This document shows positions 38,945 to 62,970 of a stretch of DNA of 64,000 bases, in pieces. The notes beneath the pieces were generated by a model. It had not been told where the DNA came from, did no database searches, and worked only from the letters and a program-made list of their open reading frames with translations. The position numbers and the translations under genes are program-made. Location: positions 806,001 through 870,000 of the forward strand of contig NZ_PTJC01000005.1 of assembly GCF_002934605.1 (NCBI RefSeq), read 5' to 3'. Within the stretch, counting starts at the first letter, position 1. The number at the start of each line of letters is the position of its first letter. Source of the stretch: Neolewinella xylanilytica. Its GTDB lineage: Bacteria > Bacteroidota > Bacteroidia > Chitinophagales > Saprospiraceae.

Positions 38945-38945
38945 T

Positions 38946-39038: not shown

Positions 39039-39075
39039 AGCGCGTGGGGCTCGTCTGACGAGTAATCCACCTCTC

Positions 39076-44688: not shown

Positions 44689-45378
44689 ATGATGCAGGAG
44701 GATTTCAGCCGGGAGCGACTGCTTCTCGCCGTGGATTGCATTGTCTTTGGCTTTGACGGGGAGTTTCTCAAGGTTTTGCTGATTAAACGCGGATTCGAGC
44801 CGGAAATGGGGAAGTGGTCCCTGGTGGGCGGATTCCTCCAGACCAACGAGGTGCTGGAGGATGCCGCGACGCGGATCCTCAGCCAGTATACCGGACTGAG
44901 CGACATCTACATGGAACAGGTCGCCACCTTCAGTAAGATCGACCGGGACCCGGAAGACCGCATCGTATCCACCGCCTACTATGCGCTGATCGATATCCAT
45001 AAGCATTCCCAGAAGCTGAGCCGGCAATTTTCGGCCCAGTGGTTCAACATCGAGGATTTCCCCCCGCTGATTTTCGACCACGGAGAAATGGTGGCGGCCG
45101 CGCTGAAACGATTGCGGACAAAGGCTCAGACGGAGCCCGTAGGCTTTGAGTTGCTACCGAAGAAGTTTACCATGCGCCAGCTCCAAACGCTCTACGAGGC
45201 GATCTGGAACGTGACGCTGGACAAACGAAACTTCAGCAGCAAGATCCGCTCGTTCAATTTCCTGGAGAAACTGAACGAGAAGGATAAATCCACCTCGCGC
45301 AAGGGCGCTTTTCTCTTCCGCTTCGATGCCGAGGAATACGATAAGCAAGAGCGAAGCCGCACCACGCTAAATCTGTAA
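44689..45378 (+). CDS. NUDIX-domain transcriptional regulator (NrtR/AraR-like)
   Basis: 229 residues from ATG 44689 (or 44692); the frame extends to 44602 without support. The N-terminal NUDIX-like domain (LAVDCIVFGFDGEFLKVLLI, GKWSLVGGFLQTNEVLEDAA) has a degraded Nudix box. ATRILSQYTGLSDIYMEQV stands where the catalytic REx2EExGU should be, as in sugar-sensing non-hydrolytic members. The C-terminal winged helix (KFTMRQLQTLYEAIWNVTLD, RNFSSKIRSF) would bind DNA. In Bacteroides a homologous type, AraR, controls arabinose genes. Here it converges on a GH127-type arabinofuranosidase only 22 bases away, which supports an L-arabinose-responsive regulator of the adjacent locus (inference). Confidence 0.85.
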   Translation: MMQEDFSRERLLLAVDCIVFGFDGEFLKVLLIKRGFEPEMGKWSLVGGFLQTNEVLEDAATRILSQYTGLSDIYMEQVATFSKIDRDPEDRIVSTAYYALIDIHKHSQKLSRQFSAQWFNIEDFPPLIFDHGEMVAAALKRLRTKAQTEPVGFELLPKKFTMRQLQTLYEAIWNVTLDKRNFSSKIRSFNFLEKLNEKDKSTSRKGAFLFRFDAEEYDKQERSRTTLNL

Positions 45379-45400: not shown

Positions 45401-47770
45401 TCAATCCACTTCCTTCAGGAGGCGGACGGAATAGATCTGCCCGGTAAATGACCCCTCCGCCGCGGCGAATGTAAGGGTGAAGGCTTCCCCGGCGGCGCTG
45501 TTCAGGACGGCTTCCGGAATGTGGATGTCCAGCGTTTGCTCGCCCCCTTCCCGCGAGCCCGGCAGGCTGACGGCTTGGACGACCTCTTCGTTGATCAGCA
45601 CGTCAAATTTGCGGGGGGGGCCGGCGGCCTCGTGGATAATGCGCAGCGTTTTGCCCGCCTTGGCGGTATTGTTCAGGTCGTAGCTGAACCAGCCCCGGGC
45701 GGAACGCCAGCTTTTTCCTTCGTCGGTACTCCCGTTGTCGGTTTGTTCTCCGGCGAAGCGGTGCTCGGTTTCCGGTTGTTGTTCGCCCGCCGCGACGTGG
45801 TCGACGGTGGAGGCTTCCAGGGCAAGCTGCTCGGCCTCCGCGGCGCGCATGTCGGTCCGTATTTGCTCCAGCTCGTCCGGATCGGTGACTCGCCAGTAGA
45901 GCATGTACCGGCTGTCGTGTACTTCGAAGAACGGCTGGAGAACAAGGGCTTCCGAACCATCCGGCGTAACCGCGTTGGCGATGGTAAAGCGGAGCGAATC
46001 CCCGGGGAGTGCATTCACCTGGCTGCTCAGCTCGCCCCCGTCCTGAACCACCATCGGTGCCTCGTCCAGGGGGAGAAATTCACCGGCGGCCACGTGGCCC
46101 ATCCGGCTATCGTCCGCTAACAGCCCCTCCAAATCGTCCGACCCCGTGGCCGCGGCCAGTACGATGGGGCCGTGTACGAAGGAAGCCCAGGGGGAGTTGT
46201 CGGGCAGGAACTCTACCCGGGTTTCCATCGGGAGGTTGACGCTGACGCGATCGCCGCTTTTCCATTCCCGGTCGATCGAGACGAAGCCCGCCTGGTCGGT
46301 GGTCACGGATTGCTCTTCCCCGTTCACGGAAACGGCAAAGGCACCTTCGGGCACCCATCCCGGATGGCGAAGGTGGAGCGCGAAACGACTTGGTTGCTCC
46401 AAACTCAGCGCTATTTCCGAGTTGCTTTTGTAGGGGAAGTCCGTTACCTGCCGAAGCTGCAGCCCCTTCTCCTCCCAGTCGAGGGTGGAGGCGATGAAGA
46501 GATTAACGTAAACGTCGTCCTCGGTGTGGGCGTAGATCAGTTCGCCGTACTTGCCGTGATTTTCGAGCCCCGAGCCTACGCAGCACCAGAAGCCTTCCTG
46601 GGGCTGGGAGTACACGCGGTAGTGGCGGGGCCGCATGGGGGTGAAGTACACGAATCCGCCGTCGGGGTGCTGGGAAGACAAGATGTGGTTGTACATCGCT
46701 CGCTCGTAGTAGTCGATGTATTGCTGGCCGGGGTTGTCGAGGTAGAGCATCTTGGTTAGCCGCAGCATGTTGTAGGTGTTGCAGGTTTCCGGCCCCTGGT
46801 TGGAGGCGATCATGCTGGAGAAGTCGTCGGCGGGGTGGAAATGCTCCCGGACGCTGTTGCCGCCGATGGAGACGGTGCGTTCGTCCACTACCGTGCGCCA
46901 GAAGTAGTCGGCCGCGCCGGACCAGCTCGTATCGTTGGTCACCTGGGCCACCCGCTCGAAGCCGATCACCTTCGGAATCTGGGTGTTGGCGTGCATGCCG
47001 GTCAGCCGATCCTCCCGTACCAGCAGCGGATCCAGGACGACCTCGTGGGAGAGGCGGCGGGCCAGGTCGAGGTACTTTTCCTCACCCGTGTAGGCGTATA
47101 CGTCGGCGAAGATCTCGTTCAGGCCACCGTGCTCGCTGCGGAGCATATCCTGCATTTCCTCGGCCGAAAGATCCTCGGTGGTTTCCACGAACCAGTCCGA
47201 GAGTTTGACCAGCATGTCCAGTGCCTGCTCGCTACCGGCGTAGTCGTAGGCATCCCGGAGGCCGGCAAAGATCTTGTGAATATTGTAGAGGGGGACCCAG
47301 CGGTCATTGAGGGAGAAGGCGCCGGCGCGGATGTCGCCGCCCTCGATCTCTTTCCACATTGGCTTCCCGTCGGGAATGCCCCCGATGTAGCCGTTCCCGT
47401 TTTTTTCCTGGGCTTCCTGCAGGCGATCGAGCATGTAGGTCAGTCGCTCGTGGACGGCGTCGTCGCCCGTGGAGGCGTACATGAGCGACAGGGCGGAGAG
47501 GTAATGCCCGCCGATGTGGCCGTTGAGGCCCGAGCTTTCCCAGTTGCCGTAGTTCTCCGCTTCCGGGTCCATGCCGGCCTCTTCCAGGTAGGGGGCCAGC
47601 AGGCGGTCCGGGTCCATTTTCATGATGTAGTCCAGGTCCGTTTGCTGGGCCCGCAGGAAGGGACCGGCTTCGAGGCTTACCGCGGATAGGGGGAAGCTTT
47701 GCAGTTGCTGGCCGGAGAGCAGGCCGATGGCGCCGCAGGCGATCAGGAAGGAAAGTAGGTGCCGGTTCAT
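45401..47770 (-). CDS. GH127-type beta-L-arabinofuranosidase (DUF1680 family)
   Basis: 789 residues from ATG 47770 with signal peptide LLSFLIACGAIGLLSGQ. The (alpha/alpha)6 domain shows WESSGLNGHIGGHYLSALSL, VPLYNIHKIFAGLRDAY and the zinc-cysteine site of the family. That site comprises E328 and C330 in QGPETCNTYNML and C396-C397 in GFWCCVGSGLENHGKYGEL, where one Cys is the nucleophile. C-terminal beta-domains follow. Clan members (GH127/GH146) release beta-L-arabinofuranose from plant glycans. The gene starts 10 bases after the third VCBS lipoprotein and is probably the last cistron of the susCD operon. I cannot separate GH127 from GH146 by eye. Confidence 0.9.
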   Translation of the reverse strand: MNRHLLSFLIACGAIGLLSGQQLQSFPLSAVSLEAGPFLRAQQTDLDYIMKMDPDRLLAPYLEEAGMDPEAENYGNWESSGLNGHIGGHYLSALSLMYASTGDDAVHERLTYMLDRLQEAQEKNGNGYIGGIPDGKPMWKEIEGGDIRAGAFSLNDRWVPLYNIHKIFAGLRDAYDYAGSEQALDMLVKLSDWFVETTEDLSAEEMQDMLRSEHGGLNEIFADVYAYTGEEKYLDLARRLSHEVVLDPLLVREDRLTGMHANTQIPKVIGFERVAQVTNDTSWSGAADYFWRTVVDERTVSIGGNSVREHFHPADDFSSMIASNQGPETCNTYNMLRLTKMLYLDNPGQQYIDYYERAMYNHILSSQHPDGGFVYFTPMRPRHYRVYSQPQEGFWCCVGSGLENHGKYGELIYAHTEDDVYVNLFIASTLDWEEKGLQLRQVTDFPYKSNSEIALSLEQPSRFALHLRHPGWVPEGAFAVSVNGEEQSVTTDQAGFVSIDREWKSGDRVSVNLPMETRVEFLPDNSPWASFVHGPIVLAAATGSDDLEGLLADDSRMGHVAAGEFLPLDEAPMVVQDGGELSSQVNALPGDSLRFTIANAVTPDGSEALVLQPFFEVHDSRYMLYWRVTDPDELEQIRTDMRAAEAEQLALEASTVDHVAAGEQQPETEHRFAGEQTDNGSTDEGKSWRSARGWFSYDLNNTAKAGKTLRIIHEAAGPPRKFDVLINEEVVQAVSLPGSREGGEQTLDIHIPEAVLNSAAGEAFTLTFAAAEGSFTGQIYSVRLLKEVD

Positions 47771-47780
47771 AAGTAGCTGT

Positions 47781-50700
47781 CTATTGAAGAATGAGCTGTC
47801 GCGGTCCATACAACACCCGCAGGGGGGCATCGTTTCTCGCCGCTACGACAGTAATCGTGTTTTGGTTTTGAAAGATCGTCAGGTCCCTCGTTTCTCCATA
47901 GACCGCGAATCCGGAAGTGGCCGCATCCACGGCGTCGAAGCCGGTTTCGGTGCGTAGCAACAGGTTCCCGTAAGAAGCGTCGAAGCGGCCCACCGAGGGC
48001 ATATTATCGTGGAAGTTTCCGGCCGCGAAGACGTCCGTTCGACCGTCGCCGTTCACGTCGGCGGTGGTAAAGGCATGAATGGGAGCGTACTGCGCTTCCT
48101 GGGGCAAGGCGTGGAAGGTGTAGTTCCCCCCGCCTTCATTGAGCAGGTATCCCGACACGAAGGTTTCCACTTCCCGGATCTCGGCCGCCGCTCGTTGGTG
48201 CTCGGGCATCATTTCCGGGAAGGTATGCTCCGCGTATTCGGCGTAGGTGGGGTACTGCAGGCGAATGGTCGGTAACTGCTCCTTGAGCTCGTTGAGGCCG
48301 GGGTAAATCCATTCCTTCCCGTGGCGGTAGTACGTCAGGATGGGATCGACGGTGAGGTTGCGGTCGAAATCCTGCAAATACAACCGTAGCGGTTCCTCTA
48401 CGGAAGCCGTGAGGCTGGAATTCAAACCCCGGTTACCGAGCAACAAGTCATCGTCGCCGTCGCCATCGAGGTCGGCGGGGTGGACGGTATTCCACCAGCC
48501 CGACGTGCCCGGCAAGGCCCGTTTCGTAAACATACCATCACCTGCGAGGTCCAGAAAGGTGACGGGCATCCAGTGGCCAACCACCGCGAGCGATCGTTCT
48601 TTCGCCAGCCAGGTCGCGTCCGTCACCATGCCGAGGCCACGCAGCGATGCGGTCCGGTCGGTGGTATCCACGGAAAACCGCCCCCGCCCGTCGTTCACCA
48701 GGACGTAGCTGTCCGGTGAAACACCGTACTTGCCCACCATCGAGCGGGTGCCGACGAAGAGATCGGGAAAATGATCGCCGTTGAAGTCAGCGGCCACCAC
48801 GCAGGAGGCGTTGGCTTGCAGGTTGGGAACGGCGGCAGGGGCCAGCGTGAAACCGCCTTCGCCATCGTTGCGGTAGAGGCGGTCCTGGAACAGGGATTCG
48901 TGTACAAGCTGCCCACCACCGCTTGCTACGTATAGGTCAAGATCGCCGTCACCGTCAGCGTCGAGGAATACTGGTTGGGCATCTTCGTAGAGGGTATCCC
49001 GGCGGAACGCTTTCTGGGGGGAAGGGGTGAAGCGGGGCGTTCCGTCCGGGCCGGCGGCCTGTAGGTATAGTTGTCCGCTCTGTCCGAAGGCCCCGCCAAC
49101 GTAGAGATCGATGAGGCCATCACCGTTCACGTCCCCCTCCGCCATACGCGGGCCTTCGACGGACAATTTGTGGGGCAGCAGTCGCTCGAAGTTGAAGTCC
49201 ACATGGGCATTCTCCCGGTGCTGAAAGTCCAGGCCCGATTCGTCCGTAATGTCCCGGAAGGCTACCGGTAGGGTGGGCGGACTGGCCGAAGGTTCGCGGG
49301 CGTCAGCGTAGTCCAATCGCAAGCTTTGCGCGACCGGGACGTTTGACAGTTCCTGGATCTTGCCATCGGGCCAGGTCACGGTCAGTTTCGGGATATCGGT
49401 CAGCGTTCCACTGCCCAGGATCATCACCGGGTCTACGGAGGAGAGCCATCCCCGTCCGGGGTTTTGCTCCTGTACGATCTTGCCCCACGGCACCTCCAGT
49501 TCGACCCGCGCGCCGATTCCAAAGGGATTGCCCACGGGGCCGGCGAGGGTTAGGCTCAGTGAGTTGTTTTCCGTGGTTTCCGCGGTCCGGTTTCGGTAGA
49601 CGGTTGCCTCGTCGTTGAGGTTGTTGACGACGAGGTCGAGGTCGCCGTCGCCGTCGAGATCGCCGTAGGCGGCACCCATCGAGTAGCCCACCCGGTCCAG
49701 TCCCCAGGCTTCCGAAGTATTCTCGAAGGTAAGATCGCCCCGGTTGCGGTAGGCGTAATTGGGGGCGGCCCCGTCCGGCATACGCTGGACCATCTCCAGG
49801 GAGGAGACCGTCTGCTGGACCTCGTCGTCGTAGGTGAAATTGATGTAGTCCAGGTCGATGGGGCGCTTCACGATTCCGTTGGCGACGAATATGTCCTTCC
49901 ACCCGTCGTTGTCCAGGTCGGTCAGCAGCCCCGCCCAGCTCCAGTCGGTGGCGTGAATGCCTGCCAGTTGTCCGACTTCGCTGAACTGCACATTATCCGC
50001 GAACAGGTTGCCGCGGTTCACCTGCAGCATGTTCCGGGGCGACTGGTAGAAGTAACCGAAGTTCAGTTTGTAGTCGTAGATATTGTAGGGGTCGGGGCCG
50101 GCAGACTTCTTGCGGATCACCTCGTCTTCCGGCATCATGTCGAGGGTCAGGATATCCAACCGCCCGTCGTTGTTGACATCGGCGATGTCGTTGCCCATGG
50201 AGAAGGTGCTGCTGTGGCCGAGGGTCCCCATGACGTCTTCACGGAAAGTGCCGTCGCAGTTGTTGTAGTAGACGTAATCGTTCTCGTGGAAGTCGTTGGA
50301 CACGTAAATATCCGGGCAGCCGTTTTGGTCGATGTCTCCGATGCCCACGGCCAGCCCGTAGCCGGTAGCGCCTCCGTAGATGCCGGCGGAGTCGCTCACG
50401 TCGACGAAAACACCGTTGTCGTTACGAAACAACCGGTCGCCGGCGAGCGGATCACGTTTATTCCGTTGGCCGGCGTGAATGTACACGTCGGGGTTGTGGA
50501 CCGAGTGGTTGAGCTGATAGAGGTCGAGGTCCCCGTCCAGATCGTAATCGAAAAAGGCCGCCTGCTGGGAGTAGCTTTCCAGGTCCAGCCCGAACGCGGC
50601 GGCGCGGTCCGTAAAGGTGCCGTCGCCGTTATTGATGAAGAGTTGGTTCGTCCCGTCGAAGCCCCGGTAGCGGGCCACCTGGCTTACGTAGAGGTCGAGG

Positions 50701-51095
50701 TAGCCATCGCCGTTCACGTCTGCCATGACGACCCCGGTCTTCCAGTGCCGCTCGCCGGTCGTCCCCGCTACCCCGGCAGCTTCGGTGATGTCCTGAAAGC
50801 GGAAATCGCCGAGGTTGCGGTAGAGGCGGTTCGCCAGTTGGTTGGAGGTGAAGTAGATGTCCGCAAGGCCGTCGTTGTCGATATCCCCGATGGCCACGCC
50901 CCCGCCGTTGTGGGCGTAGAGGTACTGGTTGATGTTCAGGTCTTCGCTCTCCGTGAGGTGATTGGCGAAATCGATACCGGTCTCCGCGGGCGGCATCTCG
51001 GTGAACAACGGACGCTCCTCCCGGCACCCGGTAAACCAGGCCAGACCGAGGGCCAGGAGCCAAAGGGAGGGGTATGGGTTCGCGGCGTAGGTCAC
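47781..51095 (-). CDS. VCBS/FG-GAP repeat lipoprotein with ASPIC/UnbV domain (3 of 3)
   Basis: 1104 residues. The start is GTG 51095, whose GTGA overlaps the stop of the preceding gene; it places the lipobox WFTGC (Cys24) correctly. Blades carry calcium loops DxDxDGxxD: GDIDNDGLADIYFTSN, DVNGDGYLDLYVS, GDIDQNGCPDIYVSN, DLDNDGWKDIFVANGI and YGDLDGDGDLDLVVNN. The ASPIC/UnbV segment follows (GRGWLSSVDPVMILGSG, LTVTWPDGKIQEL), then a second propeller (DADGDGDLDLYVASGGG, DLDGDGDDDLLLGNRGLN). The family has no established biochemical role. Its position after SusD suggests surface glycan binding or processing. Downstream, GH127 starts 10 bases later. Confidence 0.9.
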   Translation of the reverse strand: MTYAANPYPSLWLLALGLAWFTGCREERPLFTEMPPAETGIDFANHLTESEDLNINQYLYAHNGGGVAIGDIDNDGLADIYFTSNQLANRLYRNLGDFRFQDITEAAGVAGTTGERHWKTGVVMADVNGDGYLDLYVSQVARYRGFDGTNQLFINNGDGTFTDRAAAFGLDLESYSQQAAFFDYDLDGDLDLYQLNHSVHNPDVYIHAGQRNKRDPLAGDRLFRNDNGVFVDVSDSAGIYGGATGYGLAVGIGDIDQNGCPDIYVSNDFHENDYVYYNNCDGTFREDVMGTLGHSSTFSMGNDIADVNNDGRLDILTLDMMPEDEVIRKKSAGPDPYNIYDYKLNFGYFYQSPRNMLQVNRGNLFADNVQFSEVGQLAGIHATDWSWAGLLTDLDNDGWKDIFVANGIVKRPIDLDYINFTYDDEVQQTVSSLEMVQRMPDGAAPNYAYRNRGDLTFENTSEAWGLDRVGYSMGAAYGDLDGDGDLDLVVNNLNDEATVYRNRTAETTENNSLSLTLAGPVGNPFGIGARVELEVPWGKIVQEQNPGRGWLSSVDPVMILGSGTLTDIPKLTVTWPDGKIQELSNVPVAQSLRLDYADAREPSASPPTLPVAFRDITDESGLDFQHRENAHVDFNFERLLPHKLSVEGPRMAEGDVNGDGLIDLYVGGAFGQSGQLYLQAAGPDGTPRFTPSPQKAFRRDTLYEDAQPVFLDADGDGDLDLYVASGGGQLVHESLFQDRLYRNDGEGGFTLAPAAVPNLQANASCVVAADFNGDHFPDLFVGTRSMVGKYGVSPDSYVLVNDGRGRFSVDTTDRTASLRGLGMVTDATWLAKERSLAVVGHWMPVTFLDLAGDGMFTKRALPGTSGWWNTVHPADLDGDGDDDLLLGNRGLNSSLTASVEEPLRLYLQDFDRNLTVDPILTYYRHGKEWIYPGLNELKEQLPTIRLQYPTYAEYAEHTFPEMMPEHQRAAAEIREVETFVSGYLLNEGGGNYTFHALPQEAQYAPIHAFTTADVNGDGRTDVFAAGNFHDNMPSVGRFDASYGNLLLRTETGFDAVDAATSGFAVYGETRDLTIFQNQNTITVVAARNDAPLRVLYGPRQLILQ

Positions 51096-54000
51096 GGTTG
51101 GAGTAGTTGGAAGAGTTGTACGGGCCGGTCGTTGCGGGCCACCAGTAGATAGCGACCGCCCGCCAGCCGAATCGGAACGATGTCGCGGACCTGTCCGTCC
51201 AGTTCCCATCCGCTTTCCCGGGCGGTAGCCACGGTAAAGCTTCCGTCTCCCGCGCCCACCAGCAGGGTGCCCCGGCTGGCATCGTACCGGCCCATCTCGG
51301 GTTTGACCGCGTACAGATTGCCCCCCAGCACCACGTCGGGTATATCGTCTCCCGTAAAATCGGTCACGTAGACGGCCATCGTTGGCGCCAGCTGGGCCTC
51401 CCGGGGCAGGGGCTGGAAGCGGAAGCGGGAGCCTTCGTTCAGGAATACCCCGCTTTCCAGGGTAGTCACCCGCAAGTGGATCGCCTCGTCCAGGTCCTCG
51501 GCGGCGAAAAGCGCTCCGATCCGCTGCTTCTGGTAGGTAGCGTATTTGAGGTACTCCTTTTTCAGGGACGGCAAGCTTGCCGTCAAGTCGTGGAGCAGGG
51601 CCACCGGGTAGGACGTATCCCCGTTGTAGGCGGTGATGATCTGTTCCACGGTGCCGTTGCGGTCGAAGTCGTAGACGTAGCATTCGACCGGACGCCGGGC
51701 GGATGCGCGGAAGCGGGAATTCAGACCGTGATTACCCACGATGAGGTCCTGGTCGCCGTCGCCGTCCAGGTCGGCCACGCTGATGGCGTTCCACCATCCC
51801 GTATAGTCCGTCAATCCGTAGGCTTCGGTCCGGTCGGCCAGGCCGTCGTCGGTTTGGATAAAGATCCGTGGAGCCATCCATTCTCCGACGACGATCAGGT
51901 CCTGACGGTCGTCTCCGTTGATATCCGTCCAGGCCGCGTCGCGGATCAGGCCGATGGCGGACAGGCCGGGCGCGAGTTCCTCCGTCCGGTCGGTAAAGGT
52001 TCCCGTGCCGTCATTTTCCAGCAGGTAGCCATTTTGGGGAACGCCGTAGTGCCGGTCCCGCAGGCGAACGCCCACGAAGAGATCGACGTCCCCGTCCCCG
52101 TCAAAATCCTGCGGCGCTACGCAGGAGGTACTCTCGAAGCGCCGCGTGGGGTAAATCGCCGGTGCCTTGAAAAACCGGCCTCGCCCGTCGTTGAAGTATA
52201 GACGATCGGCTAGGGCGGAGGAACTGGCGGCGTACTCATTGCCCCCGCTGACCACGTAGAGGTCCAGATCTCCGTCTCCGTCGGCGTCGAACAGGGCGGC
52301 GTCGACGTCCTCACTCCGGGCGTCCTCCAGCAGGGCGGGTTGGGATAGCGGCCGGAAGGCCCCGTCGGCCGACTGGGCGAACAACTGGCCGGGTCGGTCG
52401 CGCGCGCCGCCGATGAAAATGTCTTCCCGTCCGTCACCCGTCACGTCACCGACCGCCAGACGGGGCCCTTCGGTAGAAAGCATGTGGTAGAGTAGCCGGT
52501 CTTTATCGAAATCGTTAAAGTCGTTTTCCTCGTGGGCGATACCGGCTTGTCCCCCCACTTTGGCTTCGAGGAACAACGGTTGAGCAAGTCCGGCCCAGAC
52601 CTGGCCCGCGTACAGGTCGGTGGCTGGCGACTCGGAACCGGCGGGCTCCCGAACCGTAAGCAGGGTATCCACGGGGACGTCGGTAAGCAAACTTTGGGCA
52701 CCCGACGGCCAGTCAATCGTGAGGCTGTCGATACGGTCTGCTGCGCCCAGTCCCAGGAAGAGTACCGGCTCTACGGAGGACTGAAAGCCCCGTACGGGCA
52801 TCTGCTCCGCCGAGGTGATGCCGGTTCCGGATTTGGCCGTCACCTGCGCCCCGACGCCCTGGGTGTTCCTTCCACCACCTTCCAGGCGGAGCTTCAGATA
52901 GTGGCGGTCGGGAAAGTGGCGCTCGGCGTTGTTGCGGTAGAGGAAGGCGGGCATGTTGACGTTGTTGACTACTAGGTCCAAATCGCCGTCGTTATCCAGA
53001 TCTCCGAATGCCGCGCCGTTGGAAAAGCCGGCCTGGTGCAGCCCCCACTGCTCCGTGCTGTCGTGGAAACGGAGGCCCTCCTGGCCGGAAAATAGGACGT
53101 TCGCGATGGGCTGGGACGGGATCATTTCGATCAGCTTCTCGTAGTTCACCCCGTCTTCGGTGCGCAGGCTCCGGGCGACGATATCGTTGGAGATGTAGCG
53201 GAGGTAATCCTGGTTGAGGATGTCCTGGTAGATGCCGTTGGTGACGTAGAGGTCCGACCGGCCGTCTTTGTCCAGGTCGGCAAACAGCGCGCTCCAGCTC
53301 CAGTCGGTGGCCTCGACGCCGGCCAGGCGACCCACTTCGCTGAAGCCGAATTCGCCGGGGTGGTCGGCACCCGTATTCCGGTGGAGCATGTTACGGGTAA
53401 ACTGGTGGTGGTAATCGTAGCGGACGTTGTGCCGGTACTTGTCCCAGTTCTCGAAGGTCATGGAGGTTTTCAATCGCCCTTCATCGCTGGGCAGCATTTC
53501 GGTAACGAAGAGTTCGGGGTAGCCGTCCCCCGTCAGGTCCGCCGCGTCCACGCCCATGGAGGCCATACTGATGGACTCGGCTTTGTCGACGAGGGTTTCC
53601 GCGAAGGTGCCGTCGCCCCGGTTCATGTACAGGTAATCCCGCTCGAAAAAGTCGTTGCAGACGTAGATGTCCGGCCATCCGTCGCGGTCGAAGTCGGTCA
53701 CCCGCACGCCCAGCCCGAAGGCGATGGTGCTGCCGTAGATCCCGGCCTCCTCACTCACGTCGCGAAAGGTGCCCCCATCGTTGCGGTACAGCTTATGGCC
53801 GCCGACGGAATCGCGTACGTAGCGGTCGTTGCGCCGCAGGTCGAAGGAACCGATGGCGCGAAAGGAATTGTTGAGCAGGTAGGCATCCAGGTCGCCGTCG
53901 CGGTCGTAATCGAAGAAGGCCGCCTGGGTGGAATAGCCGCGATCGGCCAGGCCGTAAGCCCCGGCCCGCTCCGTGAAGGTGCCGTCGCCGTTGTTGACGA

Positions 54001-54460: not shown

Positions 54461-55052
54461 GGCCGGCGGTTTGCGGAGCCAGATTGACGAACCAGAGATT
54501 TACCAGGTAGGGGTCCAGGTCCTTCCATACGGTCAGCCGGCGGTTACCGGTCACTTTGGCGTACACCTCGCCCCGGCCGGGTACGGGACTCTCGATCCGC
54601 AAAAAGCCGGGGCCGTATTGCTCGTCCATCAGCCCCAGTACGTCCTGCAGCAGGCTATCCTGGTGGAAGGGGCGGGCTTCGGAAAAGGCAACCGTATCGG
54701 CGTAGTATATGGCGGCCTCCAGCTTGGTGATTACGTTGCCCTCGAAGGTGGGAAAGTAATTGATGTAGGCGGGATGCGCCAAGCCGTCCGGCAGGGCGGC
54801 CAGCAACCAGGATCCGCTCTTCAGCCCGCCCTCGCTGGTCTTTCCCGCCAGGTGTAACGCCATGCAGTGGATGCGGAATTCCTCGAACGACATGCCGAAG
54901 TACAGGTCTCCGGGCAGGCTGTCGTAGCGAACGCCCGAGGCTAATTCGCTGGCCTGCCAGTCCTGGAATTGCCGGGCCGGGCTATCCCGGCAGCCGGTAA
55001 AGCAGCTACCGGCCAGGCACGCTATACAGAGGGAAAGCAAATACTTGATCAC
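54450..55052 (-). CDS. small lipoprotein embedded in the VCBS operon, unknown function
   Basis: 200 residues from GTG 55052; GTGA overlaps the stop of VCBS protein 1. The frame is open further upstream but only as antisense-like sequence inside that gene. Signal MIKYLLSLCIACLAGSCFTGC gives a lipobox at Cys21 (or Cys17). The mature domain (RQFQDWQASELASGVRYDSL, GDLYFGMSFEEFRIHCMALH, YINYFPTFEGNVITKLEAAI, RLTVWKDLDPYLVNLWFVNL, each quoted in part) looks like a single alpha/beta domain. I do not recognise it. Its place between two giant VCBS lipoproteins suggests a partner of them. Confidence 0.8.
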   Translation of the reverse strand: MIKYLLSLCIACLAGSCFTGCRDSPARQFQDWQASELASGVRYDSLPGDLYFGMSFEEFRIHCMALHLAGKTSEGGLKSGSWLLAALPDGLAHPAYINYFPTFEGNVITKLEAAIYYADTVAFSEARPFHQDSLLQDVLGLMDEQYGPGFLRIESPVPGRGEVYAKVTGNRRLTVWKDLDPYLVNLWFVNLAPQTAGHEL

Positions 55053-58000
55053 GGCGCTTTTTTTAGTACGACGGGCGCATCGGCGTAGCGGGTAGTGACG
55101 ATCAAGCGACGGCTTCCGACCTTGACCGGTTGGAAATCCCGCACCTCGCCGTCCAGATGGATACCGGAACGGAGCGCCGATACCGGCATGAACGACCCGT
55201 CGCCGTTTCCGTGCAGGAACAGGCCACGGCCCGCGTCGTAGATGCCGACCTCGGGTTTGGCCCAGTGAAAATTCCCACCGAGGAGCAGGTCGATGGTACC
55301 GTCGCCGTCGAAATCCTCCGCCAGCGCGGCGAAGATCGGAGCCAGCTGCGCCTCCTTCGGCAGAGCCAGGGGCCGAAAAACGCCATTGTCGTTCAGGTAA
55401 CACACCGACTCGGTGGTCACGGCCCGCAACTTGGTAGCGGTTTCCAGCTGCTCCGACGGGAGTATGTCCTCGACGCCCTGGCGGCGATAGTTGCGGAAAT
55501 AGAGGTACTTCTTGCGCAGTTGGGGCAGTTGGCTCACCAGGTCGGTCCGCATAACGAGCGGATAAGCCCCCCCGTCGTGGTAAGTAGTCAGGAGGTGCTC
55601 GATCTTGCCGTTGCCGTCAAAGTCGCCGGTGTACAGCCGGGCCGGGGCATCGGGGGTAGCGCGAATGCGGGTGTTCAGCCCCCAGTTTCCGGCGATGAGA
55701 TCCGGATCGCCGTCCTGGTCCACGTCGGTCACCGCCAGCGCATTCCAGAAACCGTTCGTCTCCCCGAGCCCGGCGGCTGCCGACACTTCGGTCAGCGTAC
55801 CCCCGTCGTTGGCGAATAGCCGCAGGGGCATCCAGTCGCCGGCGACGAGCAGGTCCGGATCGCCGTCCCCGTCGTAATCCAGCCATTCGGCGACGGTCAC
55901 CATGCCGAGATCGACGAGGTCGGGCGCGCGGTCGCGGCTTTCGTCCTCGAAGTTTCCCGCGCCGTCGTTAAACAGCAGGTAACCGGCGGGCGGCTCCCCG
56001 TACTGGAAGGCCATGGCCCGTACGCCTACGAAGAGGTCGGTGTCGCCGTCGCCGTCCACGTCGGCCGCCCGGACGCAGGCGCTGTTTTCGTAGCGCCAGC
56101 TGGGTAGTTCCTGGGGGTCGCGGTGAAAATTTCCGTCTCCGTCGTTGCGGTAAAGCCGGTCGAGGAGCAGGGTCGACGTGGAAGGGAACTGGTTGCCGCC
56201 GCTGGAGACGTACAGGTCCGGATCGCCGTCGCCGTCGGCGTCAAAGAATACCGCGTCGCTGCTTTCCGCCGCCGCGTCGCGGGTGAAAGCCGGCTGTTCG
56301 GACGGTGCAAAGGTGCCGTCGGGCCGCTGGAGATAGAGCCGGTCGGCCTGCCCTTCCCCTCCGCAAAGGAAGAGGTCGTCCCGGCCGTCCCCGTTCACGT
56401 CGCCGCTGCAACTCCGCGGCGTGCCGGTGCGTACCATATGGAAAAGCATCGGGTCGCGGTCGAAATCCACGAACTCCGTTCCCCGGTGCGCGAAGTCGAT
56501 CCCGGCGTTTCCGTTCTGGCGGGCAAACAGCGGTTCTGGAGCAGACGAAGGATCCGGCGGGTTGGGGTGGCGATCCGTCGAATCGTAGGTTACCGTCAGT
56601 AGCTGGTTCGCGGCTACGTCGGTGAGGGTGCGGACCGTCAGGTCGGGCCAGCGGATCACCACCGAATCGAGCCTTTCAATCGCTCCCAGGCCGAAATGGG
56701 CACGGGCGTCCACGCACGACTGATACCCGCGCATCGGCGCGATCTCCTGGTACCACTGTTGGTTGCCGGCGTAGAGACTTATTTGGGCGCCGAGCGCAGG
56801 AGAAAGCATGGGCCCCCTTGCGTCGATCGTAAGGTAGTGGCTTGCCGGGTCCAGTTCGTCCGTCCGGTTTCGGTAGAGGAAGGGGGGCATGTTGACGTTG
56901 TTGACCACGAGGTCCAGATCGCCGTCGTTATCCAGATCGCCGTAGGCGGAGCCGTTGGAGAAGCCGGGGCAGTCGAGCCCCCAGGCCGGAGCGGCGTCCA
57001 CGAAGCGCAGGTCGCCCATGTTTTTGAAGGCGACGTTCGCCAGGGGCGTACTCGGCATGCTATCGATCAACGCTTCGAGGTAGGCGCCCTTCTGCTCCAG
57101 AATGCGTTTGGCGGTAGCCGGGTCGGCGTAGAAGTTGAGGTAATCCAGGTCGATCAGATCCTTATAGATGCCGTTGGCGACGTAGATGTCCTTTGCCCCG
57201 TCGTTGTCCAGGTCCGCGATCAGGGCACCCCAGCTCCAGTCGGTCGCGCTGGTGCCGGCGTAGCGGCCGATCTCGCCGAAGGTGACAGACTGGCTATCGG
57301 GGGTGGCGTAGCCCCGGTTCCATTGCAGGACGTTCCGGGGAAACTGCCGGTGGTAGCCCGTCCGTTCGTTGGATTGGTATTTGTTCCAGCTTTCGAAGAG
57401 GGTCTTCGTTTTGAGGCGCCCTTCGTCGCGGGGGAGCATCTCGGTGACGAAGATTTCCGGGAAGCCGTCACCGTTCAGGTCGGCCATGTCCGCACCCATG
57501 GAGCCGAGGCTGATCTCGCCGATCGTCGCTTCCAGGCTTTCGGTGAAGGTGCCGTCGCGATCGTTGAGGTAGAGGTAGTCCCGCTCGAAGAAGTCGTTGG
57601 ACACGAAGATGTCCGGCCATCCGTCCCGGTTCACGTCACCGATGGTGACGCCCAGTCCGAAGCCGATGGCGCTGCCGTAGATGCCCGCCGCCTCGCTCAC
57701 GTCGGTGAAGCCGCCACCGTCGGGGCCCGGTGGACCGTCGTTACGGTACAGTTTGTTGCCGCCGTGAGGATCCCGTAGCTCGCGTTGGTCGGGGCGGAGG
57801 TCGTAGGCCCCCACCGACCGCAAGGAGTTATTCAGGAGGTAGAGGTCCAGATCGCCGTCCTTGTCGTAGTCGAAAAAGGCGCCGTGGGTGGACAGGCCGA
57901 GGTCGTCCACCTTCCATTCCGCGGCGGCTTCCACGAAGGTGGGCAGTCCGGTGGCCGGGTCGTTTACGCCCTGGTTGATAAAGAGCTCGTTGTGGCGGTT

Positions 58001-58465
58001 GTCGCCCTCGGGCCGGCCGGATTTGCAGACGTAGATATCGATCCAACCGTCGCCGTTGACGTCGGCCAGGCTCACGCCGGTCGACCAGACGCCGGGGCTG
58101 CCGAGGCCGGCCCGTTCCGTGATATCCTCGAAGTGAAAATCACCCCGGTTCAGGTACACCCGATTATCGACCATATTGCCACAGAAGAAGAGATCGACGA
58201 GCCCGTCGTTGTTGAGGTCACCAATACCTACACCAGCACCATTGTAGAAATTGCGGTAGGTGTAGGTATTAAAGGCCTCGGTGTGCTCCAGGTCGTTCCG
58301 AAAATCGATATTCGTTCGCTCCGGCGGCAATAGCGTGAACCGCGTATCGGTAGTGCCGGGGCAAAGATCGACGGAAGGGGGTGGGTCTGCACAGGCGGTG
58401 AACAGTAAGCCCAGCAGCATAGCGGCTATACTCCGGGAAGCATATACGGTGCCGCGATGAATCAA
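55049..58465 (-). CDS. VCBS/FG-GAP repeat lipoprotein with ASPIC/UnbV domain (1 of 3)
   Basis: 1138 residues. The start is TTG 58465 inside a TTGA overlap with the susD stop, giving MIHRGTVYAS and lipobox LFTAC (Cys25). Shared features are FNTYTYRNFYNGAGVGIGDL, LNNDGLVDLFFCGN, NRDGWPDIFVSNDFFERDYL and LDNDGDLDLVVNNVNMP. The ASPIC/UnbV region reads MRGYQSCVDARAHFGLG and VVIRWPDLTVRTL. A second propeller has DVNGDGRDDLFLCGGEGQ and DADGDGDPDLYVSSGGNQF. It closely parallels VCBS protein 2, suggesting tandem gene duplication followed by divergence. It is the first gene after SusD. It may be a surface glycan-binding protein or enzyme; no catalytic evidence. Confidence 0.9.
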   Translation of the reverse strand: MIHRGTVYASRSIAAMLLGLLFTACADPPPSVDLCPGTTDTRFTLLPPERTNIDFRNDLEHTEAFNTYTYRNFYNGAGVGIGDLNNDGLVDLFFCGNMVDNRVYLNRGDFHFEDITERAGLGSPGVWSTGVSLADVNGDGWIDIYVCKSGRPEGDNRHNELFINQGVNDPATGLPTFVEAAAEWKVDDLGLSTHGAFFDYDKDGDLDLYLLNNSLRSVGAYDLRPDQRELRDPHGGNKLYRNDGPPGPDGGGFTDVSEAAGIYGSAIGFGLGVTIGDVNRDGWPDIFVSNDFFERDYLYLNDRDGTFTESLEATIGEISLGSMGADMADLNGDGFPEIFVTEMLPRDEGRLKTKTLFESWNKYQSNERTGYHRQFPRNVLQWNRGYATPDSQSVTFGEIGRYAGTSATDWSWGALIADLDNDGAKDIYVANGIYKDLIDLDYLNFYADPATAKRILEQKGAYLEALIDSMPSTPLANVAFKNMGDLRFVDAAPAWGLDCPGFSNGSAYGDLDNDGDLDLVVNNVNMPPFLYRNRTDELDPASHYLTIDARGPMLSPALGAQISLYAGNQQWYQEIAPMRGYQSCVDARAHFGLGAIERLDSVVIRWPDLTVRTLTDVAANQLLTVTYDSTDRHPNPPDPSSAPEPLFARQNGNAGIDFAHRGTEFVDFDRDPMLFHMVRTGTPRSCSGDVNGDGRDDLFLCGGEGQADRLYLQRPDGTFAPSEQPAFTRDAAAESSDAVFFDADGDGDPDLYVSSGGNQFPSTSTLLLDRLYRNDGDGNFHRDPQELPSWRYENSACVRAADVDGDGDTDLFVGVRAMAFQYGEPPAGYLLFNDGAGNFEDESRDRAPDLVDLGMVTVAEWLDYDGDGDPDLLVAGDWMPLRLFANDGGTLTEVSAAAGLGETNGFWNALAVTDVDQDGDPDLIAGNWGLNTRIRATPDAPARLYTGDFDGNGKIEHLLTTYHDGGAYPLVMRTDLVSQLPQLRKKYLYFRNYRRQGVEDILPSEQLETATKLRAVTTESVCYLNDNGVFRPLALPKEAQLAPIFAALAEDFDGDGTIDLLLGGNFHWAKPEVGIYDAGRGLFLHGNGDGSFMPVSALRSGIHLDGEVRDFQPVKVGSRRLIVTTRYADAPVVLKKAP

Positions 58466-59985
58466 TAGCCGGGGTTTTGCGTCAAATTCGGGTTTGCGTT
58501 CAGTTGACCCTGGGGGATGGGGAATAGCAGCTTTTCTTCACTGGAAGCATTCTTCTCCCACCAGTTGCCGGTAAAGCGATCGAAGCGGATCATGGTCGGC
58601 CGGCTGTGGGCTTCGAAAGCAAGCTCCCGCTGAATCTCGTCGTAGAGCTCGTCTTCGGTCAGCGGGTCGATGGCCTCCAGGCCGGCGCGCTCCCGCACCT
58701 GCCGCACCAGCTCTACGGCTTCGGCGTCGCCGTTGTCCATCCGCCACAGGGCCTCGGCGCGCATGAGCAGGATATCGGCGTAGCGGAAGATCGGGAAGTC
58801 GTTCTGCTGGGCGAGGGCCAGGCCGAAGTCAAAGGCAAACTTGCCGATACGGGCTCCCGACTGGCTGAAGGCCCGGGGGGTTAGCTCGTTGATCTCCGGC
58901 GTGAAGATGAGGGGGGCTCCGTCGGGTTCGGGGTTGCCGTCGGAGTCCACTTCGGTCTCGCCGTTGGGGTCCAGTAGCGGGTTGCCGGCGGCGTCGTACT
59001 GCTGTCCTACGATAAACATCTCCTTGCGGCTGTCAGTCTCGTCGAAGGTGTTGTAAAACTCTTCCAGGGCGACGAAGCCGTTCCAGGGTCCCGTAGTGAA
59101 GTTGTAGGTTTCGCGGTTCAGGGGGTGGAGCGTCCGCATGTGCATGTTAAAGCCGGTGTTGCCGCCCGACTTTTCGTACGGAATTACGAAGATATTCTCG
59201 CGGGAGGTACGGTTTTCCGGTTCGAAATTGTCGAAGTAGTTCTCCTCCAGTACGTAGGGGCCGTCGTCGATAATGCGGGAGGCGGTGGCGGCGGCCATTT
59301 CCCACTGGGGGGTGCCGGTATAGGTTTCCGCGTTGAGGTAGACCTTGGTGAGGAGCGCCAGGGCACCCCAGCGGGTCATGCGGCCGTAGTAGGCACCGCC
59401 GGAAGCGTCCGACAGCATGCCGGAGTCGAGAACGTCGTTGAGCTCGCTGACGATGAACTGGTAGACTTCGGCGCGGGGCGCGCGTTCGGGATTGGGCGTT
59501 CCTTGCAGGAAGGAGGTCTCCAGGGGGACATCGCCAAAGAGGTCGATCATCAACCAGTAGTAGAGCGCCCGCAGCGACCGCATCTCGATGATGGCTTCCT
59601 CCGAGCCCCCTAATTCGGACAACTCGTCGATCGTCCGGTTACAGGCGGCGATGCCGCTGAATCCGAGGTTCCAGGAGTTGTTGAAAACGAAGAAGGTGGA
59701 TTCCCATTCGTGGCGGTGCAGCCGGGCCCAGACGCCGCCGTCGTCCCAGGGGCCGAATTTGGCCGGGGCGGCACTGGTCTCGGTCGATAGCTCCTGGGAT
59801 GGCCAGATGGCATCGTTCACGTACAGGTTGAGGTTGGTATAGTTCTGCAACAGCGCGCCCAGGACGGCGTCGTCCGAAGTGAACTGCGTTTCCGGCGTCA
59901 GGTCGCTGTAGATCTCCGGTTCGAGGTCCGTACAGGATACGAGCAGGACCGGTAGCAGGGCGGGGAAAAATTTATATAGTTTCAT
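58462..59985 (-). CDS. SusD/RagB-family glycan-binding lipoprotein
   Basis: 507 residues with lipobox PVLLVSC (Cys18) followed by TDLEPE, as usual for SusD. Family features include AVLGALLQNYTNLNLYVND, the helical TPR-like segments (RSLRALYYWLMIDLFGDVPL), YADILLMRAEALWRMD, a helix with VRERAGLEAI, ELAFEAHSRPTMIRFDRF and a C-terminal end PNLTQNPGY typical of SusD proteins. It forms the lid over the SusC barrel and binds oligosaccharide at the cell surface. It begins 21 bases after susC, and its TGA overlaps the TTG start of the next gene. Confidence 0.95.
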   Translation of the reverse strand: MKLYKFFPALLPVLLVSCTDLEPEIYSDLTPETQFTSDDAVLGALLQNYTNLNLYVNDAIWPSQELSTETSAAPAKFGPWDDGGVWARLHRHEWESTFFVFNNSWNLGFSGIAACNRTIDELSELGGSEEAIIEMRSLRALYYWLMIDLFGDVPLETSFLQGTPNPERAPRAEVYQFIVSELNDVLDSGMLSDASGGAYYGRMTRWGALALLTKVYLNAETYTGTPQWEMAAATASRIIDDGPYVLEENYFDNFEPENRTSRENIFVIPYEKSGGNTGFNMHMRTLHPLNRETYNFTTGPWNGFVALEEFYNTFDETDSRKEMFIVGQQYDAAGNPLLDPNGETEVDSDGNPEPDGAPLIFTPEINELTPRAFSQSGARIGKFAFDFGLALAQQNDFPIFRYADILLMRAEALWRMDNGDAEAVELVRQVRERAGLEAIDPLTEDELYDEIQRELAFEAHSRPTMIRFDRFTGNWWEKNASSEEKLLFPIPQGQLNANPNLTQNPGY

Positions 59986-60006
59986 CTTAACGTTTCGCTT
60001 CGTTGA

Positions 60007-62970
60007 TTAAAGGCCGACTTTGACGCCGATGGTGTAGGAGCGGGACCGGAAGTAGTTGTTTCGGTACTCCACGCCGGGGTAAAGGGCATCTCCGATACGC
60101 GGTTCCGGGTCGACGCCGGTGTAGCTGGAGATCACGATGGGGTTTTGGGTGGCTACGTACACCCGCAGTTGCCGGAAGCTGGAATTCCCCAGGTCGAAGT
60201 TGTAGCCGAGCGCCGCGTTATCGAGTTTGACGTAGTCGGCTTTCTCCACGTAGTAGTCGGACCATTCTTCGTTGCCGACCATGTCCGGCAGGTAGAAGTC
60301 GGTGATTACCAGGTTGTAGTTGTTGACGTTGTCGGGCACCTCGTAGTAGGCACGGCTGATGTTGGCGATACTGTGACCGAAAGCACCCCGGAAGGTGGCA
60401 CTGAAGTCGAAGTTGCCGAAGGTCAGGGAGTTGTTCCAGGCCAGCTCGAAATCGGGCAGGGCGTTGCCCACGATCGGCCAGTCGTTGAAGCGTTCGATCG
60501 CTCCGTTGCCGTCCAGGTCCGTCAGCTCCTCGTACTGGCGGTTACCGTCCGCGTCCAGGCCCAGGAAGCGGGGTGCCTGAATCTGGCCCAGTTCCTCGCC
60601 GACCGCGGCCCGGATGACGTTGGTGCCGTTCAAGCCCGGGGGGCCGGGGTTGCCGCCGAAGAACACCTGGCTGTCTTCGTTCAGGGAGATGATGGTCGTC
60701 TTGTTGGTCGAAAACGTGATGCCGGTGGTGTAGGCCAGCGCCTCCTGGTTGATGACGTTGTAGTCTACCACCAGTTCCAGGCCCTTACTTTCCAGTTCGC
60801 CGAGGTTAAGCAGGGTGGAACCGAAGAAGTTGGGCGGCTGGCTCACGGGCTGGTTGAACAGCAGGTCGGTGGAGTTGCGGGTGTAGGCGTCGATGGAGCC
60901 CGTCAGGCGGTAATCGAAAAGGGCGAAGTCGATGCCGATGTTGGTCTCCGCTTTCTGTTCCCATTTTAGGTCCGGGTTCGGGTTGCTGGCGTAGTTGAAC
61001 AGGCGAATGTTGCGCTCGGCGTTGCCGTCATTGAAGGGAATGGTGCCGGCGTTGCTCAGCAGTACGCGGTAGGCGTAGAACGGAGTGGGCAGGTTGCCGG
61101 TCACGCCGTAGCCGGCCCGCAGTTTGAGGCGATCCATCGGTATGTTGAGGGCCTTGGCGAGGTCGACGCCGGCGCTAAGTGAATAGAAATTACCCCAGCG
61201 GTTGTTGGCGCCGAAGCGGGAGGATCCCTCCCGACGGTAGGCCGCCGTAAAACTGTAGGTGTCCTCGAAGCTCACGAGGGCGCGGCCGAAAAAGGAAGCC
61301 AGTAGCGACTGGCCCTTGCCGCTGTCGAAGCCGCGCCGGGTCACGTCCTCGGAGTTAATACCGAGCCCGAAATCGAGGTTGTTGTAGCCCAGTTCATCGG
61401 TGATGAAGCCGGTATTGAACACGTTAAAGTTCTCGGTGATCAGCTCCTGGTAGGTGTACCCGCCGACGATGTTGAGGTCCACGCGGCCGACGCGCTTTTT
61501 GTAGGAGCCCGTAAGTTCGAAGAGGGAATTCTGCTCGTCGAGGGAGTTGCGGTCCGCCCGGCCCTGTAGCCCGTCGAAGCCGCCAAAGCGCTGGGCCGAG
61601 GTGGCGTAGGCGCCGTAGATCTCACTCCGGTACTGCAGGGAGTAGAAGGCGGACGCCGTCAATCCCTCCAGCAGCTCGTAATCAGCCCGGATGCTGCCGA
61701 GCATGGTCTTGTACTTGCCTTCGCGGGTGTTCTCTTCCATGATGGCAACGGGGTTGTGGAACTCCGTGGTATTTGGCTCCAGGTAGCCGAGCTCAGGGTC
61801 GTTGTCCACGTACACCGGGGCGGTCGGGTTGGAGATGAGGGCGAATCCCAACGCCTCGTAGGGCACGAAGGAAGCGTTGCGGATGTTCACCGAGACGTTG
61901 CCGGTGAAGTTCAGTCGACTGTCCAGTACCGAGTGATTTAGGTTCAGTCGGGTGTTGAACTGGTTAAAGCCGCTGTTGCGGGCGATGCCCTCCTGGTCGC
62001 GGTAGTTGACCGACAGCCGGTAGCTGGATTCCGCGGAGCTGCCGTTGAGGGCCAGGTTGTAGGTCTGGGAAACGCCGGTACGGGTCACCAGGTCCAGCCA
62101 ATCGGTGTCGTAGCCAAGGTCCGTGCCGCCCTCTTCCACGAAGCGCTCGGCACTGGCGATCGGTACGCTGCGGGCAATTTCGTCGATCGTTCCGTAGGCG
62201 TCGAAGGTTACCCCGCGCGTTCCCTCCCGGCCTTTTTTGGTGGTGACGATGATCACCCCGGAAGAGCCGCGGGAGCCGTAGATGGCCGCGGCCGATCCGT
62301 CCTTCAGTACGTCGATCGAGGCAATGTCGTTGGGGTCCACCAGTTCCAGGTTGCCGCCCTGCACGCCGTCGATGATGATGAGCGGGGAGGCATTGGCACC
62401 GAAGGTGGACAATCCGCGCAGGCGGACGGCGAATCCCCCGTTGGGGTCGCTGCCCGAACGGTTGATGGACAGGCCCGCGACCTTACCCTGCAGGAATTGC
62501 AGGGGGTTGTTGACGTTGCCCTTGTTGAACTGGGCTTCGTCGATGCTCGCCACCGAGCTGGTCACCTGCTGCCGCTCCGTGGTGCCGTAGCCGATCACCA
62601 CCACCTCGTTCAGGTTGGTGGAGGTGTTGCCGAGCGTCACGTCGATGGTCGTGCGGTTCTGGACCGGGATTTCCTCGGTGCCGAAGCCGACGTAACTGAA
62701 GATCAGCACCGCATCGGGCGGTACGGAAAGGCTGTAGCTGCCGTCCAGGTCGGTGACCGTGCCGCTAGCCGAGGCGTTGTCCTTTTCGAAGACACTGACG
62801 CCAACGAGGGCTTCCCCGTTACCGTCGGTGACCGTGCCGCTCACCTCGACGGTCTGCGCGCGGCCCGTAACCGAGAGCAGGAGGAAAAACCCGAACGATA
62901 GCAGGTGAGGGAGGGAAAAGCAGGAGACGGAAGCGCCCGGGAGGGCGCGCGTTGATTTAGTTTTTTGCAT
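60007..62970 (-). CDS. SusC/RagA-family TonB-linked outer membrane transporter
   Basis: 987 residues: a signal peptide (FGFFLLLSVTGRAQ), a carboxypeptidase-regulatory-like domain (VEVSGTVTDGNGEALVGVSV), then the SusC plug. Plug features are NEVVVIGYGTTERQQVTSSV, PLQFLQGKVAGLSINRSG, VRLRGLSTFGANASPLIIID and DGSAAAIYGSRGSSGVIIVT. A full barrel ends SYTIGVKVGL. It imports oligosaccharides delivered by SusD and is first in the probable seven-gene operon. There is no N-terminal signalling extension and no sigma/anti-sigma pair next to it. Two inverted repeats lie upstream (63000-63079). Confidence 0.95.
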   Translation of the reverse strand: MQKTKSTRALPGASVSCFSLPHLLSFGFFLLLSVTGRAQTVEVSGTVTDGNGEALVGVSVFEKDNASASGTVTDLDGSYSLSVPPDAVLIFSYVGFGTEEIPVQNRTTIDVTLGNTSTNLNEVVVIGYGTTERQQVTSSVASIDEAQFNKGNVNNPLQFLQGKVAGLSINRSGSDPNGGFAVRLRGLSTFGANASPLIIIDGVQGGNLELVDPNDIASIDVLKDGSAAAIYGSRGSSGVIIVTTKKGREGTRGVTFDAYGTIDEIARSVPIASAERFVEEGGTDLGYDTDWLDLVTRTGVSQTYNLALNGSSAESSYRLSVNYRDQEGIARNSGFNQFNTRLNLNHSVLDSRLNFTGNVSVNIRNASFVPYEALGFALISNPTAPVYVDNDPELGYLEPNTTEFHNPVAIMEENTREGKYKTMLGSIRADYELLEGLTASAFYSLQYRSEIYGAYATSAQRFGGFDGLQGRADRNSLDEQNSLFELTGSYKKRVGRVDLNIVGGYTYQELITENFNVFNTGFITDELGYNNLDFGLGINSEDVTRRGFDSGKGQSLLASFFGRALVSFEDTYSFTAAYRREGSSRFGANNRWGNFYSLSAGVDLAKALNIPMDRLKLRAGYGVTGNLPTPFYAYRVLLSNAGTIPFNDGNAERNIRLFNYASNPNPDLKWEQKAETNIGIDFALFDYRLTGSIDAYTRNSTDLLFNQPVSQPPNFFGSTLLNLGELESKGLELVVDYNVINQEALAYTTGITFSTNKTTIISLNEDSQVFFGGNPGPPGLNGTNVIRAAVGEELGQIQAPRFLGLDADGNRQYEELTDLDGNGAIERFNDWPIVGNALPDFELAWNNSLTFGNFDFSATFRGAFGHSIANISRAYYEVPDNVNNYNLVITDFYLPDMVGNEEWSDYYVEKADYVKLDNAALGYNFDLGNSSFRQLRVYVATQNPIVISSYTGVDPEPRIGDALYPGVEYRNNYFRSRSYTIGVKVGL

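Follow-up and report, generated by a model that had tools for sequence, protein, structure and literature searches.

SusCD systems are a main feeding route of Bacteroidota, and their best-known cases come from gut Bacteroides. A stretch of 64,000 nt from Neolewinella xylanilytica (contig NZ_PTJC01000005.1, positions 806,001–870,000), hereafter the window, raises the question of what three large VCBS proteins and a small lipoprotein (sLP) do in such a system. At 45401–62970 seven minus-strand genes follow one another in the order susC, susD, VCBS1, sLP, VCBS2, VCBS3, and a gene for an enzyme of the GH127 clan (Table 1). This operon looks like an undescribed uptake machine of the SusCD kind, and we put at roughly 60% the probability that its first six genes are an uptake chassis used with interchangeable enzymes, that the VCBS proteins capture the substrate at the cell surface, and that the substrate is an arabinose-type glycan in this case. 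The original prediction for this DNA had described a one-strand operon of susC, susD, three VCBS/ASPIC genes, a small lipoprotein gene, and an enzyme gene, and all of these genes are present, with profile matches. Each VCBS protein contains one UnbV_ASPIC domain (65.6–76.9 bits against a cut-off of 23.4) preceded by FG-GAP_3 repeats. The five consecutive lipoproteins that had been proposed are also supported, as SusD, VCBS1, sLP, VCBS2, and VCBS3 all have a lipobox-like Cys when inspected by eye.

Recurrence of the six-gene order in Bacteroidota

We examined the gene order in two sets of loci. The first consisted of the flanks of sLP search matches and contains 39 sLP genes, one of which (L106) came from a sample of ASPIC loci; the second consisted of 79 named loci picked by VCBS2 similarity (at most 80 were kept), 65 of which contain sLP in a total of 66 genes, with L160 having sLP twice. 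The two sets share four loci (L038/L153, L039/L193, L044/L133, and L050/L149). Roles were called by profiles built from the loci themselves, so that distant SusC and SusD proteins may be missed. Neighbors were counted among same-strand open reading frames (ORFs) of at least 90 aa, and a flank was considered full if it extended at least 8.5 kb upstream and at least 7.2 kb downstream. Overall, sLP was called in 104 of the 147 loci examined; L085 and L092 hold sLP by profile and were filtered out, and the window's own locus lies outside the 104 because its sLP ORF overlaps VCBS1 in the filter. Counts out of 104 loci, as well as the trees described later, predate the merging of duplicate loci.

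In the first set, 29 of the 39 sLP genes have full flanks. All 29 have a VCBS gene within the next two genes, 23 have VCBS genes on both sides, 22 have SusC and SusD among the four upstream genes, and 12 have all six parts. The corresponding numbers for the 40 of 66 sLP genes with full flanks in the second set are 40, 37, 38, and 33, the first of which is partly a matter of construction because these loci were chosen by VCBS2 similarity. The merged sets contain 105 sLP genes, 100 of them distinct, and full flanks are available for 66 of the distinct genes. One or both of the next two genes after sLP code for a VCBS protein in 66/66 cases (again partly by construction for the loci chosen by VCBS2), VCBS genes flank sLP on both sides in 57, SusC and SusD lie upstream in 59, and all six parts are found in 45; in 38 of the 66 the six parts are direct neighbors. 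Among the named loci, the full set of six was found in at least the Saprospiraceae, Lewinellaceae, Chitinophagaceae, Flavobacteriaceae, and Cyclobacteriaceae, and also in the Reichenbachiellaceae, Roseivirgaceae, Flammeovirgaceae, and Bacteroidales. Environmental genera with cultured carriers of the core are Belliella, Algibacter, Maribacter, and Algoriphagus. Conservation of the 3+1 order across Bacteroidota, which had been set as a check on the original prediction, is thus observed in many genera and several families. Variants of the arrangement include runs without VCBS1 in Algoriphagus (L166 and L177), a doubled sLP–VCBS unit (L160), and an extra transporter gene (L096).

The association is also apparent within the window's own genome, which contains 10 ASPIC matches in seven loci and 26 SusD matches. 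All seven ASPIC loci are located no more than 6.2 kb from a SusD match; zones of this size around SusD make up 5.3% of the genome, which gives p ~1e-9 for seven random placements, and the closeness of ASPIC genes to SusD in this genome is not due to chance. In the phylum at large, ASPIC genes are found in 164 of 345 sampled Bacteroidota genomes and in none of 14 control genomes.

Paralogue history and predicted folds

To place the three VCBS proteins relative to each other, a tree of 300 VCBS proteins was built with FastTree and labeled by operon position (1, 2, or 3). Positions 1, 2, and 3 require 12, 25, and 8 label changes on this tree, respectively, compared with shuffled means of 68.5, 81.2, and 59.3. 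VCBS1 of the window shares a set of 79 rows with 69 genes that occupy position 1 in other loci. VCBS2 falls into a set of 10 rows with eight position-2 genes, and VCBS3 into one of 17 rows in which 16 genes stand at position 3 in other loci. Mean identity within positions 1, 2, and 3 is 0.48, 0.54, and 0.45, respectively, and 0.39–0.47 between positions. On the whole, VCBS1–3 are separate paralogues of long standing and did not arise by recent local copying. The SusD and SusC proteins from these loci cluster as well, with six changes each versus shuffled means of 16.0 and 26.4, respectively.

The predicted single-chain structure of VCBS2 comprises an N-terminal module with the CRTAC1 fold and a second propeller. 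The predicted fold of sLP (pLDDT 88) consists of leading helices and two alpha/beta halves. sLP matches no Pfam or NCBIfam model, its profile found nothing below an E value of 0.15 among PDB sequences, and a tblastn search of a plasmid collection gave no match. A protein search with the same profile yielded 591 relatives, and among the matches listed a Pfam domain was present in 0 of 120. A single-sequence search identified sLP in 19 of the 61 genomes of the family; by profile it is present in at least 24 of the 345 phylum genomes, a lower bound given that at most nine candidates were scored per genome, and all 24 also carry ASPIC genes. Both numbers include the window's genome.

Substrate of the window copy and accessory genes elsewhere

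Two genes next to the core bear on the substrate of the window copy. The enzyme encoded behind VCBS3 aligns over residues 6–785 of 789 with PDB entry 5opj (841 bits, E 7.7e-252), which we take to be BT0349 of B. thetaiotaomicron, a GH146 beta-L-arabinofuranosidase; entries for 5opj bear different names. The enzyme had been described as GH127-type, and its domain match agrees with this (Table 1), but it is nearer to 5opj than to the solved GH127 enzymes. The motifs ETCNTYN and WCCVGSG are aligned in 5opj; these cysteine motifs serve zinc binding and catalysis. By eye, the N-terminus of the enzyme resembles a signal peptide but has no lipobox Cys, and the enzyme is therefore probably periplasmic.

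The second gene encodes a regulator with NrtR_WHD and AraR_C domains above cut-off that matches AraR of B. thetaiotaomicron (BtAraR, PDB 5bs6) with 244 bits. In BtAraR, L-arabinose is held by Arg34, Arg86, and His131 (PMC4666351). All three residues are kept in the window regulator when aligned, with chain positions shifted by 3 relative to the numbering of PMC4666351, and by the same mapping so are four of the DNA-contact residues, Asp178, Lys179, Arg180, and Asn181. Kin of both BT0354 AraR (PMC4666351) and the 5opj enzyme of B. thetaiotaomicron are adjacent to each other in the window, whereas the neighboring importer is the VCBS chassis. The nearest NCBIfam model of the divergent GH3 gene is an exo-alpha-(1->6)-L-arabinopyranosidase (524 bits, under the cut-off of 1300), and a pectate lyase gene also lies beyond the operon. 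The window copy probably takes up an arabinose-containing plant glycan, such as pectic arabinan; the proposal of an arabinose-containing substrate had preceded our analysis and is strengthened by the AraR-type neighbor with its three arabinose residues and by the 5opj-type enzyme.

The accessory genes behind the core vary among loci, from none recognized to GH127-clan, trehalase, GH65, GT20, GH97, alpha-amylase family, sulfatase, and haloperoxidase genes. GH127 was considered as part of the conserved core and rejected, as a GH127-clan gene follows sLP in the same run in only 3/66 and 1/39 cases. A single fixed substrate for all loci is likewise not supported: the scan covered 68 of the 104 accessory proteins on the list and returned 91 families, the commonest of which, trehalase, was present in five. 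What stands of the earlier idea that the triplet replaces the usual set of carbohydrate-active enzymes is that the six-gene core recurs; there is no fixed replacement, since the enzymes behind it vary. The loci give the impression of an importer and surface portion that stay constant while the enzymes are exchanged.

Four groups of accessory genes were defined as BLAST clusters, few members of each of which were scanned, and their counts include a small number of duplicate loci. The commonest cluster is a protein of ~447 aa found in 33 of 104 loci and in the same gene run in 29 of these 33. A single member was compared with PDB sequences, and it matched vanadium-dependent haloperoxidase 4cit with 481 bits (E 2.8e-143). 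The haloperoxidase motifs SGHS and SRxxGGIHY are present in 31/31 full-length members and the K/R..RPxT pattern in 25/31, and several members have lipobox-like starts by eye. Unlike 4cit, the source of which we take to be Zobellia, these haloperoxidases are encoded behind SusCD–VCBS genes, often with a lipobox-like Cys; the window operon is without one. Examples of a haloperoxidase gene after VCBS3 or in the same run are L055, L079, L080, L082, L119, L158, L175, and L186. A retropepsin-PDZ protease cluster is represented in 13 loci, divergent and upstream of SusC in 13/13 (Pfam domains seen in L042, L054, and L055). DUF6923 proteins tagged for the type IX secretion system (CHU_C) form a cluster in 11 loci (Pfam domains seen in L045, L046, and L049) and are encoded after VCBS2 in L045, L046, L049, L134, L144, L167, and L195. 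A LacI-type regulator cluster occurs in 10 of the 104 loci, with Pfam domains checked on three members. In L136, L178, L188, L194, L166, L190, L135, and L158, the accessory genes, identified by Pfam domain or gene cluster, encode trehalase, GH65, or trehalose-phosphate synthase, or else a set of aquaporin, glycerol kinase, and glycerol-phosphate oxidase, hinting at small alpha-glucosides as the substrate in these eight loci.

A surface-capture model, its alternatives, and the gene layout

In the model that we favor, SusC and SusD form the TonB-dependent importer, and VCBS1–3 would most likely be calcium-dependent double-propeller lipoproteins beside SusCD on the cell surface that catch the polymer and hand it over, taking the role that surface glycan-binding proteins (SGBPs) and surface enzymes have in utilisomes. 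sLP most likely links VCBS1 to VCBS2 or ties both to SusCD. After import, the beta-L-arabinofuranosidase would trim the pieces in the periplasm, and the adjacent AraR repressor would be released by free arabinose. The capture step is modeled on two precedents: the extra lipoproteins of utilisomes sit on the SusC lip (PMC7618045), and the VCBS superfamily includes the lectin PVL, a precedent for glycan binding (PMC8023676).

The B. thetaiotaomicron utilisomes for levan and dextran share with the window operon a SusC barrel, a SusD lid, and co-encoded lipoproteins, which in the levan system include a single SGBP and are joined by a single surface glycoside hydrolase (PMC7618045). The window operon differs in having three CRTAC1-like double propellers plus sLP, and its one recognized glycosidase is probably periplasmic. 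Compared with murine CRTAC1 (PDB 9etn), VCBS1–3 have one more propeller and resemble lipoproteins, and they are encoded as an operon triplet. With other VCBS-superfamily propellers (integrin alpha, PVL lectin, and aldos-2-ulose dehydratase) they share FG-GAP repeats and DxDxDG calcium motifs, whereas the ASPIC domain, the lipoprotein anchor, and the SusCD linkage are not described in the part of PMC8023676 consulted. In the part of PMC2668756 consulted, FG-GAP is mentioned solely in connection with adhesion proteins, as one of their repeats. In the open-licence literature we found no paper joining VCBS, UnbV, FG-GAP, or vanadium haloperoxidase with SusD, SusCD, or polysaccharide utilization loci, none on ASPIC proteins with SusCD among the matches listed (titles and abstract starts), and none on CRTAC1 structure. 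A "VCBS repeat-containing protein" beside SusD does occur in public annotation, and the proximity itself is known; what seems to be undescribed in that literature is the recurrent 3+1 order, together with the unnamed sLP family, the age of the paralogues, and the association with haloperoxidases. As a conserved core, SusCD, the three CRTAC1-like proteins, and sLP would amount to a standard component of many uptake systems that has been overlooked. The ASPIC family would thereby gain a role open to testing, for which the window copy offers arabinose as a likely substrate.

Several observations weigh against this model. Four distinct full-flank sLP loci have no recognized SusC or SusD (L039 = L193, L078, L086, and L088), one of which, L078 from the window's own genus, has VCBS–sLP–VCBS–VCBS without SusCD and a leucyl-tRNA synthetase gene upstream; the partnership is thus not strict, or SusCD is encoded elsewhere. 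Only 4 of 20 further ASPIC loci of the family have both SusC and SusD by the locus-built profiles (L098, L099, L106, and L110), so the ASPIC family is wider than the SusCD system. The separation of the paralogues is not clean, given the 25 changes at position 2; the FastTree trees carry long-branch warnings; and the mean identity of VCBS1 to VCBS2 within a locus is 0.51, slightly higher than that of VCBS1 proteins among themselves, so that the two may have exchanged sequence or may reflect an effect of common lineage. The arabinose evidence comes from an enzyme and a regulator that are neighbors not conserved with the core. In the regulator four DNA-contact residues differ (Arg183 and Lys184 are Ser, and Lys204-Arg205 is Arg-Lys), and the comparison covered BtAraR, of whose family the sister regulator XylR is another branch (PMC4666351).

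The main rival, in our view unlikely, is that the VCBS proteins are themselves glycan-cleaving enzymes of a lyase or dehydratase type that depolymerize the substrate at the surface, an idea that arises because the operon encodes no surface glycosidase; to our knowledge, the best fold match of VCBS2 is not an enzyme. We consider slightly less likely still that the imported substrate is not a polysaccharide at all but, for instance, small alpha-glucosides, osmolytes (e.g., trehalose or glucosylglycerol), peptides, or a cofactor, with the enzymes as unrelated passengers. Trehalase, GH65, GT20, aquaporin, glycerol kinase, or glycerol-phosphate oxidase genes behind the core (e.g., L135, L136, and L166) and the many loci without a recognized glycosidase would fit this, but such accessories are in the minority, and both the LacI-type cluster and the window's AraR-type regulator and arabinofuranosidase, which point to arabinose, speak against it. 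A more far-reaching variant, which we regard as rather improbable, is that the triplet and sLP are a glycan-processing surface machine of a new class. Its three specialized calcium propellers would come together on SusCD as a hetero-assembly and do the opening or cleaving of the polymer themselves, coupled in many lineages to a surface-anchored vanadium haloperoxidase attacking the substrate or matrix oxidatively; if true, this would amount to polysaccharide foraging without classical surface glycoside hydrolases. Finally, ordinary proximity, in which common ASPIC/VCBS genes hitchhike beside SusCD with sLP as a neutral passenger, might be expected from the presence of ASPIC genes in 56 of 61 family genomes in up to 29 copies and from the 16 of 20 sampled ASPIC loci without a recognized SusCD pair, but is highly improbable and already contradicted by the recurrent order with mainly position-specific paralogues across families; also against it are the VCBS gene downstream of sLP in every full-flank case (in part by construction), the closeness of all seven own-genome ASPIC loci to SusD, and the overlapping reading frames.

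Table 1. Genes of the operon and its immediate neighbors, in window positions
Feature	Position	Strand	Evidence and remarks
SusC, TonB-dependent outer-membrane transporter, 987 aa	60007..62970	-	TIGR04056 638 bits (cut-off 368); Plug, CarbopepD_reg_2
SusD lipoprotein lid, 507 aa	58462..59985	-	PF07980 88 bits, PF14322; lipobox-like VLLVSC by eye
VCBS1, CRTAC1-like lipoprotein, position 1, 1138 aa	55049..58465	-	TTG start; FG-GAP_3 and UnbV_ASPIC above cut-off
sLP, small lipoprotein, 200 aa	54450..55052	-	GTG start; conserved family without Pfam/NCBIfam model
VCBS2, CRTAC1-like lipoprotein, position 2, 1122 aa	51092..54460	-	FG-GAP_3 and UnbV_ASPIC above cut-off
VCBS3, CRTAC1-like lipoprotein, position 3, 1104 aa	47781..51095	-	GTG start at 51095; FG-GAP_3 and UnbV_ASPIC above cut-off
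GH127-clan beta-L-arabinofuranosidase, 789 aa	45401..47770	-	GH127_cat PF07944 406 bits; lineage-specific accessory
AraR-type NrtR/Nudix regulator	44689..45378	+	convergent with operon; ORF from TTG 44602, probable ATG 44689
GH3 gene	63361..64000	+	divergent, cut by window edge; full gene L009:1275-3758; neighbor of the operon

As is typical of a SusCD-type locus, susC and susD are adjacent, separated by a 21-base gap, and the GH127-clan enzyme gene follows VCBS3 after 10 bases. The TTG start of VCBS1 overlaps the susD stop by 4 bases, and the three subsequent joints are overlaps of 4, 11, and 4 bases. The range of joints given originally, from a 4-base overlap to 21 bases, therefore holds for five of them, the exception being the 11-base overlap. 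Promoter- and terminator-like patterns of the operon were not above those of shuffled sequence. Elsewhere in the window, genes for a TonB-dependent receptor, a phytase, a PI-PLC-C1 phospholipase, and a purple acid phosphatase lie in a row on the plus strand (36206–42759) and are likely an organic-phosphate cluster, and a GH115 enzyme gene on the minus strand (18870–21788) represents additional plant-polymer capacity.
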